In this document: piece by piece, positions 8,769 to 15,425 of the stretch | Numbering within the stretch: the first letter of the stretch is position 1 | How the letters are laid out: the number at the start of each line of letters is the position of its first letter | Source of the DNA: Vulcanimicrobiota bacterium | GTDB taxonomy: Bacteria; Vulcanimicrobiota; Vulcanimicrobiia; Vulcanimicrobiales; Vulcanimicrobiaceae | Direction: 5' to 3' | NCBI GenBank assembly: GCA_013044185.1 | Contig: JABEUX010000124.1 | Span: forward strand, 1-41,519 | Length of the DNA stretch: 41,519 nucleotides | The notes under the pieces: model-generated | Seen by the model: only the letters and a program-made list of their open reading frames with translations | Databases searched by the model: none | What the model was told of the DNA's origin: nothing | Translations under genes and position numbers: made by a program

Positions 8769-8843
8769 TGGAGCCGTTGATGGGGATTGAACCCATGACC
8801 TCGTCCTTACCAAGGACGTGCTCTACCACTGAGCTACAACGGC
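8769..8843 (-). tRNA. tRNA-Thr (GGT)
   Basis: GCCGTTGTAGCTCAGTGGTAGAGCACGTCCTTGGTAAGGACGAGGTCATGGGTTCAATCCCCATCAACGGCTCCA; full cloverleaf, encoded CCA. Confidence 0.97.
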
Positions 8844-8853
8844 ATCGCTTCGT

Positions 8854-8927
8854 TGGAGCGGGCGGCGGGAATCGAACCCGCGCTGTCTGCTTGGAAGGCA
8901 GAAGCACTACCACTATGCAACGCCCGC
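8854..8927 (-). tRNA. tRNA-Gly (TCC)
   Basis: GCGGGCGTTGCATAGTGGTAGTGCTTCTGCCTTCCAAGCAGACAGCGCGGGTTCGATTCCCGCCGCCCGCTCCA. Confidence 0.97.
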
Positions 8928-8928
8928 G

Positions 8929-9016
8929 TGGTGGGCAGGGCTGGATTCGAACCAGCGTAGCGCTTTCGCGCGCCGAATTTACAGTCCGGTGCCTTTAACC
9001 ACTCGACCACCTACCC
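8929..9016 (-). tRNA. tRNA-Tyr (GTA)
   Basis: GGGTAGGTGGTCGAGTGGTTAAAGGCACCGGACTGTAAATTCGG..long variable arm..GGTTCGAATCCAGCCCTGCCCACCA. Confidence 0.97.
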
Positions 9017-9485: not shown

Positions 9486-9561
9486 GCCGATGTGGCTCAG
9501 CGGCTACAGCAGCAGTTTTGTAAACTGCCAATCGTGGGTTCGAGTCCCACCGTCGGCTCCA
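9486..9561 (+). tRNA. tRNA-Thr (TGT)
   Basis: GCCGATGTGGCTCAGCGGCTACAGCAGCAGTTTTGTAAACTGCCAATCGTGGGTTCGAGTCCCACCGTCGGCTCCA; anticodon loop TTTGTAA. Confidence 0.95.
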
Positions 9562-10012: not shown

Positions 10013-10660
10013 TTATTTAAACTCGAACTCCGCGAGGTTCTTCTCGATCTTCCGTTTGACGCGCTGGAGTGCGTTATCGATCGATTTCACGTGTCGACCG
10101 AGATCGCGAGCCATCTCTTGGTAGCTCTTGCCTTCGAGATAGGATTCGAGCACCTGCGATTCGAGTTCCGAGAGATTCTGGCGAATGCGCTGCCGGATGT
10201 CGTCGGAGACTTCCTGCGTCACGACGAGTTCTTCGGGATCCCCCGATTTCTGCGCCGGCATAACGTCGAGCAGCGTCCGCTCGCTGTCTTCGTCATAGAT
10301 CGGTTTATTGAGCGAGATATATTGATTAAGCGGAATATGCTTCTGGCGCGTCGCAGTTTTGATTGCGGTGATGATCTGACGCGTGATGCATAATTCGGCG
10401 AAGGCGCGAAAGCTCGAGAGTTTATCGGCTTTAAAATCGCGTACGGCCTTATACAAGCCGATCATGCCCTCTTGGATAATATCTTCACGGTCCGCGCCGA
10501 TGAGAAAGTAGCTCTTTGCCTTGATGCGCACGAAGTTCTTGTATTTGTTGAGTAAGAACTCCATCGCAAGGCTATCGCCGCTCTTCGCGGTTGCAACAAG
10601 TTCCTCGTCGCCGCGTTCGTGATAGTCCAACCCTGTTGGGGCCGGCTGGGTCATTGCCAT
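10013..10660 (-). CDS. sigH: RNA polymerase sigma factor SigH (Spo0H-like)
   Basis: DEELVATAKSGDSLAMEFLLNKYKNFVRIKAKSYFLIGADREDIIQEGMIGLYKAVRDFKADKLSSFRAFAELCITRQIITAIKTATRQKHIPLN..; neighbour rlmB. Confidence 0.88.
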   Translation of the reverse strand: MAMTQPAPTGLDYHERGDEELVATAKSGDSLAMEFLLNKYKNFVRIKAKSYFLIGADREDIIQEGMIGLYKAVRDFKADKLSSFRAFAELCITRQIITAIKTATRQKHIPLNQYISLNKPIYDEDSERTLLDVMPAQKSGDPEELVVTQEVSDDIRQRIRQNLSELESQVLESYLEGKSYQEMARDLGRHVKSIDNALQRVKRKIEKNLAEFEFK

Positions 10661-10814: not shown

Positions 10815-11597
10815 CTAGCCCTCGCGACGCTGGCGGAGGGCCTCGTAGAGCAGAACCCCGGCAGCGACCGAGGCATTGAGCGAAGCAACCCCAGCGAGCA
10901 TCGGAATCTTCACCAGGAAATCACAGTTCCTGGCGACCAGGGGTGCGAGCCCTGCCCCCTCCGCCCCGATGACGAGCGCGAGGTCCCGGTTGAGGTCGAT
11001 GTCGTACATCGGTTGCGCGCCCTCACCGGCGTCGGCCCCCGCGATCCAGAGTCCACGTTTTTTGAATGCGGTAATCGTCTGCGCGATATTCGTTACCTGG
11101 GCGATGGGAATATGCGCGGTCGCGCCGGCTGCGGCTTTTCGTACCGTGGCATTGACGCCCGCACTCCGACGGTCGGGAAGAACGATCCCATTCGCCCCGA
11201 TGCAGGCTGCGGTGCGAACGATCGCACCGACGTTATGCGGATCGGTGAGATGATCGAGAAGAACGACGAGAAGCGGCGCCCCATCACGCGGCGCGAGCAC
11301 TTCCTCGAGATCGGCATACGGAAACGGCGCGCTGCGCGCGACGACGCCTTGATGCGCCTTATATGGCAAGCGCGCGAAAAAATCGCGCCCTTCAAAGCGA
11401 GCGCGCAACCCGCGCTCCTCCGCAGCGGCGAGCAAGGCGCGCAGCGCAGGGTCGCGCGCTCGATCGCTCGCAACGTGCAGAGCGAGAATCTGCTCGCCGG
11501 CCCCCAACGCTTCCTCAACGGCATGAATTCCGTAAATGACGTCGTCGAAATCGAGTGGGGCTTTCAACCGTCCTCCGGCTATCGGACGACGCTCCAT
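10815..11597 (-). CDS. rlmB: 23S rRNA (guanosine-2'-O-)-methyltransferase RlmB (SpoU family)
   Basis: YGIHAVEEAL..LDHLTDPHNVGAIVRTAACIGANGIVLPDRRSAGVNATVRKAAAGA..LALVIGAEGAGLAPLV..IPMLAGVASLNASVAAGVLLYE. Confidence 0.92.
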   Translation of the reverse strand: MERRPIAGGRLKAPLDFDDVIYGIHAVEEALGAGEQILALHVASDRARDPALRALLAAAEERGLRARFEGRDFFARLPYKAHQGVVARSAPFPYADLEEVLAPRDGAPLLVVLLDHLTDPHNVGAIVRTAACIGANGIVLPDRRSAGVNATVRKAAAGATAHIPIAQVTNIAQTITAFKKRGLWIAGADAGEGAQPMYDIDLNRDLALVIGAEGAGLAPLVARNCDFLVKIPMLAGVASLNASVAAGVLLYEALRQRREG

Positions 11598-13036
11598 GCC
11601 GAACCCTCCTTACCATCTTTGATATCGATACCGCAACGCAACAGCGCATCGCGTAAACGATCGCTCCGCGCCCAATCTTTCTCCGCACGCGCTGCGAGCC
11701 GCTCCGCGATCACGCGTTCGAGTGCCGTTCGCGCATCCTCAACACCATCGAGCCACGGCTCACCGATCTCTCCGCGCAGCGTCGCAGCGAGCCCTGCCGG
11801 CAGCGGAAGCGCCTCCGGCTCCGCGAGCCAGCTCTCGTTCGGTTCGATCCCCAGGAGCGTCAGCGCGGTACGGAGCTCCATCAAGCGTTGCGGTGCGCTC
11901 CCTCCCTCGGCACTCCCCGCCGCAGCGAGAACCTCCCGCAATGCCGCGGCGGTATTCATATCGTCGTCGAGCGCCGCAATGACGCGCGCCGTTAACGCCC
12001 CACCTTCCACCGAAGCCTCGTGCGAGCTGCCTGCAGCGAGATGGAGCGCGCGATAATCGCGGCGCAGGCGTTCGAGCGTCGCCGCCGCTCCCACCATCGC
12101 TTCGTCGGTAAAGTTCATCACTTTCCCATAGCCGGTTCTCAAAAAGAGCAGCCGGATCGCTTGCGGATCGTAGCGATCGAGGACGTCGCAGAGCGGCTCG
12201 AAATTGCCGAGCGATTTGCTCATCTTGCGATTGTCGAAGAGCAACAACCCGCCATGCAACCAGAAATTCGCCATCGGCGGCCGAGCCATCAACGGCTCGC
12301 TCTGAGCGATCTCGTTCTCGTGGTGCGGGAAGATGAGGTCGGCTCCGCCGCCGTGGATATCGAAGCCCGTGCCCTCGGGGTCGAGCAACGCATGCGACAT
12401 CGCCGAACATTCGATATGCCAACCCGGGCGTCCATCGCCGTAGGGCTCGAAGGGCCAATGCGGCTCCCCCGGCTTCGCGAATTTCCAAAGGGCGAAATCG
12501 AGCGGCTCCTCTTTTGCTTCGTCGATTTCGATCCGTGCGCCCGCTTCGAGTTCGGAGATATTGCGATTGGAGAGCGCCCCGTAGCGCTCGAACTTGCCGA
12601 CGCGGTAATAGATGCCGTCGCTCGCAACGTAGGCGTAACCGCGTTCGATCAAGGCGACGATCGTCTCGCGAATCTGTGGAATAAATTCCGTCGCATACGG
12701 CTCTTTATCGGGTTCGCGTACGCCGAGGCGCTGCATCGAACGTTTGAACTCCGCATAATATCCAGCAACGATTTCACGCCAAGAGAGGCCGAGCCGATGA
12801 GCGGCGGCGATACTCCGGTCGTCGATATCGGTGACGTTCTGAACGTAGGTTACGTCGTACCCCGAAAACGTAAGGTAGCGGCGCAAGATATCGAAAAAAA
12901 GAAAAGAACGCGCGTGCCCCAAATGCGCCTGCGCCGATGGCGTCAGCCCGCAGACGTAGATCGAGACGCGCCCTTCGTGGCGCGGGTGAAAGGGCTCGAC
13001 CCGGCGCGTACGCGTATTATAGAGCTGCAGCGGCAT
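11579..13036 (-). CDS. cysS: Cysteine--tRNA ligase
   Basis: [92 protein letters not shown]. Upstream M at 13123 lies inside cysE. Confidence 0.95.
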
Positions 13037-13697
13037 CGTCGTTTCCTTGCGAACGTTCCATCGCCCGGAGCCGCCCTTCGAGTTGGGCGACGCGGGTCTG
13101 TAATTGCGCGATCTGCACGGCATCGGGGTCGGGCATCACCACGCGCGGTGGTTCGTTCGCGTCGCGCACCGGCTCTCCGTCGATAAAAACGATGCGTCCT
13201 GGGACGCCGACGACGACGGCATTCGCCGGGACGTCGCGAACCACGACCGAGCCACCACCGATCTTCGTGTTCTCTCCAATGGATATCGCGCCGAGCACGG
13301 CGGCGTTCACACCGACGACGACGTTCCGCTCCAGGGTCGGATGACGCTTGCCGTGAGAGAGGCTCGTTCCACCGAGAGTGACGCCTTGATAGATGGTGCA
13401 ATCGTCGCCGACCTCCGCGGTCTCACCAATCACCACGCCCATACCGTGATCGATAAAAACGCCATTGCCGAGCGTCGCACCCGGATGGATCTCGATCCCG
13501 GTAAGAAAGCGTACGACATGCGCGAGCCAACGCGGCAACAGCGGGATCCCCCACCCATGCAACACGTGAATGAATCGGTGTGCGAGGAGTGCGTGGAAAC
13601 CGGGATAGGAGAGCAGTACGTCGAGCGCTCCACGCACCGCCGGATCGCGCTGCAACGGCGCGCGAAAATCCGCGGCGATCGTTTTCAATAAGCCCAT
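13017..13697 (-). CDS. cysE: Serine O-acetyltransferase
   Basis: Left-handed beta-helix: GIEIHPGATLGNGVFIDHGMGVVIGETAEVGDDCTIYQGVTLGGTSL..KRHPTLERNVVVGVNAAVLGAISIGENTKIGGGSVVV. Confidence 0.93.
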   Translation of the reverse strand: MGLLKTIAADFRAPLQRDPAVRGALDVLLSYPGFHALLAHRFIHVLHGWGIPLLPRWLAHVVRFLTGIEIHPGATLGNGVFIDHGMGVVIGETAEVGDDCTIYQGVTLGGTSLSHGKRHPTLERNVVVGVNAAVLGAISIGENTKIGGGSVVVRDVPANAVVVGVPGRIVFIDGEPVRDANEPPRVVMPDPDAVQIAQLQTRVAQLEGRLRAMERSQGNDDAAAAL

Positions 13698-14242
13698 TAC
13701 GACGGGCGCTTCCCGTGAATCGGCTCGAAGGGCGCGCCATCGGGGCCGAAGGCGATCGGCTCTAAGCCGCGGCCGTGCAGCAGCCGTGCGTTGATCGCAC
13801 CGACGCGTATCAAGATTCGATCGTGTCCGAGGAGCGGGAAGAGGAGCTCCAGTGGGACATCGTCGCGCACGCCCGTAAGGGCCATCCGAACGCTATCAAC
13901 CGCATCCTTTGCACTCAGGCCGAACTCCTCGCCGATCGCCGGGAGGTCGTGGGCGAGCGGAAGGCCGCGTAATTCCGGTTGAGCGTCGACGTATTGCGCG
14001 ACGGCATCGAGGAAAAAAAGCACCTCGCGCGAGCGCAAGCGCTCCAATTCCAACGCTGGCACGACGCACGACTCGGCGCGCAGCGCGAGAACGAATGGGC
14101 GCGCGAGGTCGAGGTCGGCAACCCGCTCGCCGTAGGCATCGAGAAAGGTCTCGATCCAGCGCAGCGCGGCATCGGGGGCCGGCGTCTCCAGGAGTCCCCA
14201 CTGCTGCATGCGACGCGCGAGCGCGAGGGCGTTCGCGTTCAC
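13697..14242 (-). CDS. Stand-alone GltX (glutamyl-tRNA synthetase) C-terminal anticodon-binding-domain-like protein
   Basis: 181 aa; motif EEFGLSAKDAVDSVRMALTGVRDDVPLELLFPLLGHDRILIRV resembles the GltX C-terminal RxALTG...P..LL.LLG..R.L.R segment; lies between ispF and cysE, the gltX position in Firmicutes; no HIGH or KMSKS catalytic domain. Confidence 0.65.
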   Translation of the reverse strand: MNANALALARRMQQWGLLETPAPDAALRWIETFLDAYGERVADLDLARPFVLALRAESCVVPALELERLRSREVLFFLDAVAQYVDAQPELRGLPLAHDLPAIGEEFGLSAKDAVDSVRMALTGVRDDVPLELLFPLLGHDRILIRVGAINARLLHGRGLEPIAFGPDGAPFEPIHGKRPS

Positions 14243-14721
14243 GATGCGATCGGCTCGACGGTCGCGACGGCATAGACGGCGATCCCCGTACCGTCTCCGG
14301 TATATCCCATTCCCTCGCTACTCTTTGCTTTTACGCTCACGGCACTCACATCGACGCCACATCGAGCGGCAAGGTTGCAACGCATCGTCTCGGTGAACGC
14401 CGAGAGGCGCGGGCGCTCTACGACGATGGTCGCATCGAGGTTGCCGACGCGATAGCCACGCGCGCGTATCAGTGCAACGCAGGCCGCCAACAATCCGAGG
14501 GAATCGGCGTCCTTCCAGCGATCGTCGCTATCGGGGAAGTGCTGCCCCAGGTCGCCGAGCGCGAGCGATCCCAGCAGTGCATCGGCGACGGCATGCGCGA
14601 GTGCGTCGGCGTCGGAGTGCCCGAGCGCCCCCCGCTCGCTAGGAACCTCGACGCCTCCCAACACCAGCCTGCGGCCAACGACGAGCCGATGGGCGTCGAA
14701 GCCGTGCCCGACGCGCATCAT
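14239..14721 (-). CDS. ispF: 2-C-methyl-D-erythritol 2,4-cyclodiphosphate synthase
   Basis: MRVGHGFDAHRLV..LGHSDADALAHAVADALLGSLALGDLGQHFPDSDDRWKDADS. Confidence 0.96.
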   Translation of the reverse strand: MMRVGHGFDAHRLVVGRRLVLGGVEVPSERGALGHSDADALAHAVADALLGSLALGDLGQHFPDSDDRWKDADSLGLLAACVALIRARGYRVGNLDATIVVERPRLSAFTETMRCNLAARCGVDVSAVSVKAKSSEGMGYTGDGTGIAVYAVATVEPIAS

Positions 14722-15425
14722 CGCGCCTCCCCTATGCGTTGCGCGCGTGCGCGAAGAATTGCGGCGGCAAGATCACGATCGCTCTGCTCCGTCACTTTGA
14801 GATTCTCCGCGGTCGACGGAATAATCGTACAACGTACCCCGATCGCCTCCAAGAGCGCGATATCGTCGGTCGCCTCGACTCCGGATACGACCGCACGGTC
14901 GTGAGCTGCGAGCAGGTCGGCATAGGTCGCAAATTGCGGTGTCTGCGCTCCCCAGAGGTTCTCTCGCGGTAGCGTCGCTCGCACGAGCAGCGAACCTGCT
15001 TCCGTTTCCTTCAGCGTATCGACGATGCGCGATGCCAGCAACGCCGCACGCCCCGGCAGAACCTCGCGCATGCCTGCCTCGATCTCCTCGACGCGTACGC
15101 ATGGGCGTGCGCCATCGTGGATCGCGAGCGCGTCGCAGCGGCCGGCGAGCGCGCGTAGCCCGTTGCGCACGCTGGCCTGGCGCGTCGCGCCACCTTCGAC
15201 GATCGGTTGCAACCGCTCGCCGAGCATCGGTCGCGCTACGCGCTCGACATCCTCAAAGGCCTCGCGTGCCGTTACTACCGTCACGACGGAGAACGCCGCT
15301 ATCGCCGCGACTGCATCGAGCGACCACGCGAGCATCGGTCGACCGGCGATCTCAACGAGTTGTTTGAAACCGCCAAAACGGCGCCCCTCACCCGCTGCGA
15401 CGACTAACGCCCCCCAGCGCATCAC
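14718..15425 (-). CDS. ispD: 2-C-methyl-D-erythritol 4-phosphate cytidylyltransferase
   Basis: VVAAGEGRRFGGFKQLVEIAGRPMLAWSL..GGATRQASVRNGL..IHDGARPCV..WGAQTPQFATYADLLAAH..ATDDIALLEAIG. Confidence 0.94.
   Translation of the reverse strand: MMRWGALVVAAGEGRRFGGFKQLVEIAGRPMLAWSLDAVAAIAAFSVVTVVTAREAFEDVERVARPMLGERLQPIVEGGATRQASVRNGLRALAGRCDALAIHDGARPCVRVEEIEAGMREVLPGRAALLASRIVDTLKETEAGSLLVRATLPRENLWGAQTPQFATYADLLAAHDRAVVSGVEATDDIALLEAIGVRCTIIPSTAENLKVTEQSDRDLAAAILRARAQRIGEAR

Follow-up and report, generated by a model that had tools for sequence, protein, structure and literature searches.

Pieces of aminoacyl-tRNA synthetases recycled as separate proteins are already known. HisZ, AlaX, ProX and ThrRS-ed are free-standing proteins of this origin (general knowledge and PMC9976931), and YadB (GluQRS), which also derives from GltX, is reduced to part of the enzyme. 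Bacterial GluRS2 enzymes include the tRNAGln-specific one of H. pylori (PMC9976931, PMC3927822), and the second GluRS of hyperthermophiles is said not to charge tRNAGlx (PMC3927822).

The window, the whole stretch of 41,519 nucleotides analysed here, contains a gene of 181 codons, referred to as the orphan, that can be set beside each of these systems. Like HisZ, AlaX, ProX and ThrRS-ed, it reuses a synthetase domain as a separate conserved protein, but those proteins, unlike the orphan, keep a catalytic-fold or editing domain. YadB/GluQRS is its mirror image, keeping the catalytic part where the orphan keeps the C-terminal domain only; this opposite architecture, pointed out in a first-pass annotation of the DNA, is confirmed by the ORF and by Pfam. 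With bacterial GluRS2 (PMC9976931, PMC3927822) it has the C-terminal Anticodon_2 domain in common, and its intact relatives at the same site are full GluRS2 enzymes with HIGH and KMSKS motifs, Glu, His or Gly at position 358 (T. thermophilus numbering) and Gly at 444. It differs from them in having no catalytic domain, in being acidic, in its new invariant residues and tail, and in being constrained without catalysis. The non-functional GluRS2 of hyperthermophiles is full-length, whereas here the catalytic half has been removed completely. No free-standing bacterial GluRS anticodon-binding domain and no report on Eremiobacterota GluRS was found in the literature searched. The features of the locus are:

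13697..14242, (-) strand: the orphan, encoding the C-terminal (Anticodon_2) domain of a former GluRS2 as a protein of its own, 181 aa, GTG start, without catalytic domain (ORF, PF19269, family profile against PDB, relatives, dN/dS)
13802..14209, (-) strand: orphan residues 12-147, the counterpart of T. thermophilus GluRS ~335-463 in the C-terminal domain (profile and per-site alignment)
13697..13780, (-) strand: orphan C-terminal tail, residues ~155-181 (LHGRGLEPIAFGPDGAPFEPIHGKRPS), a conserved extension past the end of the GluRS fold (alignment, per-site comparison)
14239..14721, (-) strand: ispF, directly upstream of the orphan with a 4-base GTGA overlap (ORF, NCBIfam)
14718..15425, (-) strand: ispD (ORF, NCBIfam)
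13017..13697, (-) strand: cysE, directly downstream of the orphan with a TAATG overlap (ORF, NCBIfam)
11579..13123, (-) strand: cysS, cysteinyl-tRNA synthetase (NCBIfam)

Anticodon_2 (PF19269) is the single Pfam match of the window protein, covering residues 9-147 at 17.8 bits (E 0.0047), under the curated cut-off of 23.6 bits, and NCBIfam gltX_bact matches in the C-terminal part only (14.1 bits). All 23 aligned relatives of the orphan match PF19269, with a best E of 9.7e-12. When the profile of the orphan family is searched against PDB, GluRS C-terminal domains come first (E 0.0014-0.02, chain positions ~377-499), and the matches after GluRS have E 0.33 or worse. An AlphaFold model from a shallow alignment has a pLDDT of 60; its Foldseek ranks 1-37 are all GluRS, at E 0.03-2.6 and TM ~0.2-0.44, none of them significant. 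The assignment to the GluRS C-terminal domain is therefore sound on sequence and suggestive only on structure, and it bears out the first-pass annotation, which had read the 181-aa ORF as this domain alone. That the Rossmann/HIGH/KMSKS part is missing, as also claimed there, holds as well: no HIGH/KMSKS catalytic part was found in the 181-aa ORF by ORF, Pfam or NCBIfam analysis, and the 4-base overlap with ispF leaves no space for one. No Rfam elements were found in or near the orphan. The window has four tRNA genes, clustered elsewhere at 8772-9016 (-) and 9486-9558 (+).

NCBIfam confirms the neighbours as IspD, IspF, CysE, CysS, RlmB and SigH, and the order ispD-ispF-X-cysE-cysS-rlmB-sigH mirrors that of Bacillus. 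The sigma factor that follows rlmB (10013-10660, (-)) scores 353.9 bits with the NCBIfam sporulation SigH model, against a cut-off of 208 bits. The coupling to ispF and cysE noted earlier is exact on both sides, with the orphan GTG start sitting within the ispF stop (GTGA) and the orphan end overlapping cysE as TAATG. Several genomes of genus g9 (G017 at L061, G108 at L110, G110 at L112 and G112 at L114) are arranged otherwise: cysE was not found in the cluster, ispDF lies kilobases off or outside the stretch examined, and the orphan or a degenerate GluRS2 is still directly before cysS.

A contig scan finds 22 Eremiobacterota loci matching the orphan at 64-95% identity. In the family of the window, made up of uncultured Eremiobacterota, the C-terminal profile is found in 70 of 99 genomes, as an intact (5), degenerate (8) or trimmed gene (57, of which 50 were inspected singly and 7 judged by frame length). 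The trimmed gene is nearly always located between ispF and cysE, the position whose conservation had been proposed as a check. There is no C-terminal match in the other 29 genomes, and the 12 of these that were inspected all have ispF followed by cysE. The domain is missing altogether from four genus-level groups of the family, and no orphan remnants were found in seven ispF-cysE gaps tested in genera without the orphan. The gap in G050 is filled by an unrelated ORF of ~160 aa (L126, reversed; ispF ends at 2639, cysE starts at 2163). Beyond the family, no trimmed form was found among the other genomes of the phylum that were searched, at a completeness of at least 85%, in which the matches are full-length frames.

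GluRS2 thus occurs at one site as a series of intact gene, full-length degenerate gene, C-terminal domain only, and nothing. Between ispF and cysE, the sister family (f2) and the class-mates (f3) carry a GluRS2 that is full-length and has normal HIGH and KLSKR motifs, and within the family it is intact in G013, G014, G043, G066 and G068, the last interrupted by a contig end but with KLSKR visible. The G068 frame (L013, ~831-1082) runs ~85 residues past the HGRGLEPI tail (SLGPAETRIRAALGRSD...). Eight genomes of g9 have a degenerate full-length GluRS2 that has lost the zinc knuckle and in which KLSKR has become KLSAR, KLSEG, KLSRQ or nothing. In a tree of catalytic domains, the degenerate ones descend from GluRS2 and not from either GluRS1, and because they group with native GluRS2 these copies appear to be decayed GluRS2 and not new fusions; a re-fusion origin is further disfavoured by their continuous linker. 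In a contig-end GltX-like fragment of G011 (L208, G011:C13, 1-867), the KMSKS is ruined (RERLSNGMASG) and the C-terminus is unrelated; the fragment is ~46-50% like f3 GluRS2 and lies away from the ispF-cysE site. The orphan itself is orthologous to the full-length GluRS2 at this site: it is 66% identical to the C-terminus of the intact GluRS2 of G013 and has the same neighbours. It is the remnant of a second synthetase, GluRS2, found full-length at the same site elsewhere in the class. The first-pass annotation had proposed that gltX was cut down to its tRNA-recognition domain while remaining an intact frame. The trimming stands, given the full-length gene at this site in relatives and the selection on the remnant, but the trimmed gene is the second synthetase and not the housekeeping one.

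The state of GluRS2 tracks the type of the housekeeping GluRS. All five family genomes with an intact GluRS2 have a native GluRS1, which shares 39% identity with the GluRS of the window genome, and 91 of the 92 other family genomes in which a GluRS was found have a replacement-type GluRS. The exception is G107, where GluRS2 is degenerate and the GluRS (L210, G107:C18) is of a third type, ~41% identical to the replacement and 34% to the native enzyme. Sister genomes differ accordingly, G014 (native, intact) from G069 (replacement, trimmed) and G013 plus G066 from G070; the flank-gene tree gives four independent contrasts, all in the same direction and too few to reach p<0.05. The closest PDB entries of the replacement GluRS are from Pseudomonas aeruginosa, Moraxella and Chlamydia, and we infer that it arrived by horizontal transfer.

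The only catalytic gltX of the window genome (G000:C92) has normal motifs and its own Anticodon_2 domain (PF19269), at 102.7 bits. The search there for a catalytic gltX lacking this domain came back empty, and because the sole catalytic GluRS is complete, the earlier suggestion that the orphan is a trans-acting subunit of a split GluRS is rejected. Near-complete trimmed genomes have one catalytic GluRS-type domain each, leaving aside pieces at contig ends in G011 and G018. GatB is present in the genomes and no GlnRS was found in those searched; in relatives from unaffected lineages there are two GluRS and GatCAB, with no GlnRS detected. In these relatives GluRS1 has Arg at position 358, as does the replacement GluRS; at the equivalents of 358 and 444, where intact GluRS2 has Glu/His/Gly and Gly, the window protein has R and D. 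As a marker, Arg358 is not universal (PMC3927822).

The retained domain has changed in several respects. In intact f3 GluRS2 the catalytic half is 75% conserved against 48% for the C-terminal part, an order that is inverted in degenerate GluRS2 (64% against 80%) and normal in the functional GluRS of the same genomes (85% against 77%). The retained domain is acidic, with a net charge of -8.6 and a pI of 5.0, against +0.8 or -1.1 for GluRS1 C-terminal domains. It has new invariants (E67, R70, D79, Q83, E90, D99, H140 and the tail, with the conserved motif HGRGLEPI..GP.G.PF) that are not in other GluRS. The fold-core residues are kept, along with the equivalents of T. thermophilus R435, T439, G440, L447, G455 and R462, and most invariants are new and mostly not anticodon contacts. 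The C-terminal domains of intact G013 and G068 are already acidic, at about -7, and have the tail, which is also present in G028 of the sister family and was not found in G014, G043, G025, G026, f3 GluRS2, GluRS1 or most other GluRS2. Since tail and charge are present in intact G013 and G068, the new features would predate the loss of catalysis, with the timing of the tail resting on few intact genomes (G013, G068 and G028). The trimmed copy of G012 (L056, 3400-3930, reversed) ends LLGHDRITRRVGAIGNKPA without the HGRGLEPI tail, and therefore either the tail can be lost or there is a frameshift.

Among nine genomes of the window's genus, dN/dS comes to 0.085 for the orphan, 0.082 for ispF and 0.046 for cysE. 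Between genera the trimmed protein is 66% identical on average, against 66% for ispF and 67% for cysE; in the functional GluRS, the C-terminal domain is less well preserved (53%). Judged by these values, the trimmed domain is under strong purifying selection, and this constraint, with the presence of the same gene in 57 of 99 family genomes, identifies it as a real gene. The window genome is a draft (73% complete, 215 contigs), as would suit an assembly or deletion artefact, the possibility that the first-pass annotation itself had raised against its reading; this is hardly credible, and is refuted by dozens of independent assemblies, some near-complete (G017 is one contig, 99%), in which the gene and its junctions are the same. 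It is also very improbable that the orphan is a relic in decay, or a spacer within the operon that persists only because it couples the translation of ispF to that of cysE. Such a spacer would explain the stop/start overlaps on both sides and the disappearance of the orphan from some genera without visible harm. It is contradicted by an amino-acid constraint equal to that of ispF and by the identity between genera; moreover, the orphan is kept in many relatives in which gaps of 20-110 bases replace the overlaps, and it stays adjacent to cysS when cysE or ispDF lie elsewhere in the genome.

Several independent trimmings appear likelier than one. Degenerate full-length copies sit among trimmed genomes in the flank-gene tree, and unless a catalytic domain can come back after its loss, this nesting requires several trimmings. 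The 5' ends also vary. Most trimmed genes begin ~10 residues ahead of the domain, those of G012, G016, G064, G065, G082, G083 and G110 keep a short GluRS2-like N-terminus (MT.LDYSQPPF, LDLDRPLPV), and that of G017 still has the linker PRERAHALLAERMQ seen in its degenerate relatives. The GluRS2-like N-termini would fit an internal deletion, the matches being short and only suggestive. A single trimming followed by horizontal spread or gene conversion is a tentative alternative of clearly lower probability. It would account for the trimmed genes forming nearly one clade in the C-terminal-domain tree, where monophyly is not rejected (p-AU 0.42), for an AU test that does not force G017 into the degenerate group, and for G069, which has a common-type trimmed gene that looks acquired or converted, its sister G014 having a different intact GluRS2. 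The differing 5' ends argue against it, as does the nesting of the degenerate genes among the trimmed ones in both trees with a native catalytic domain, which a single loss could explain only through regain.

Because this small protein is strongly conserved and has new conserved features, it probably has a non-catalytic job, one that is dispensable given its complete loss in four genus-level groups. We regard it as an evenly balanced proposition that the GluRS2 C-terminal domain was kept after the catalytic part became dispensable, as a neofunctionalised non-catalytic adaptor. GluRS2 would originally have made Glu-tRNAGln, as positions 358 and 444 and the lack of a detected GlnRS suggest, and in one sub-lineage the new invariants, acidic charge and tail are present while the GluRS2 motifs are still intact. 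The replacement GluRS would then have taken over both tRNAs, the domain having by that time a second, non-catalytic job; where this GluRS stands in place of native GluRS1, the catalytic half of GluRS2 has degenerated or been deleted. On this reading the domain most likely serves as a small, soluble regulator or adaptor, with the acidic helical face and the HGRGLEPI tail as its docking surface for another protein, and possibly with some remaining contact to tRNA. Among candidate partners, the likeliest appear to be CysS, which is co-transcribed, or the Gln-tRNA machinery (GluRS/GatCAB). Binding of tRNA is possible, since the equivalents of R435 and L447 are retained. A tRNA-Glu/Gln-binding or GatCAB-partner role, suggested in the first-pass annotation, is possible too, though the acidity of the domain and its mostly new conserved residues speak against it.

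Somewhat doubtful by comparison is a trans-acting anticodon-binding cofactor, in which the free domain would present the anticodon stem-loop of tRNAGln or tRNAGlu to the replacement GluRS or to GatCAB. Descent from a GluRS with tRNAGln-like specificity positions is consistent with such a cofactor, as are the retained R435/L447 equivalents, the reliance of these genomes on GatCAB with no GlnRS found, and the Arg at 358 of the replacement GluRS. The title of a study by Dubois and colleagues from 2009, cited in PMC3927822 and PMC4393105, also offers a precedent for E. coli GluRS halves working in trans, a C-truncated enzyme reportedly being stimulated by its free distal domain. However, the replacement GluRS is itself equipped with a C-terminal domain, and no compensating change at 358/444 was found in the replacement GluRS of genera without the orphan. 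The free domain is strongly acidic, its 358-equivalent drifts among E, R, G and Q, and most of its new invariants are not tRNA contacts. It is more doubtful still, and rather unlikely, that this is a new family of free anticodon-binding domains acting in trans, in which the native pair gave way to a GluRS gained by horizontal transfer and the left-over GluRS2 domain became a Glu-tRNAGln specificity or assembly factor. If this were true, recognition and catalysis would be carried by proteins of different origin.

The analysis brings to light a protein conserved across dozens of Eremiobacterota genomes, of which the family libraries score the window copy below threshold. Enzyme, pseudo-enzyme, single domain and absence form an ordered series at one site in one family, tied to the replacement of a partner enzyme, and this series makes testable how a synthetase acquires a second function and then sheds catalysis.
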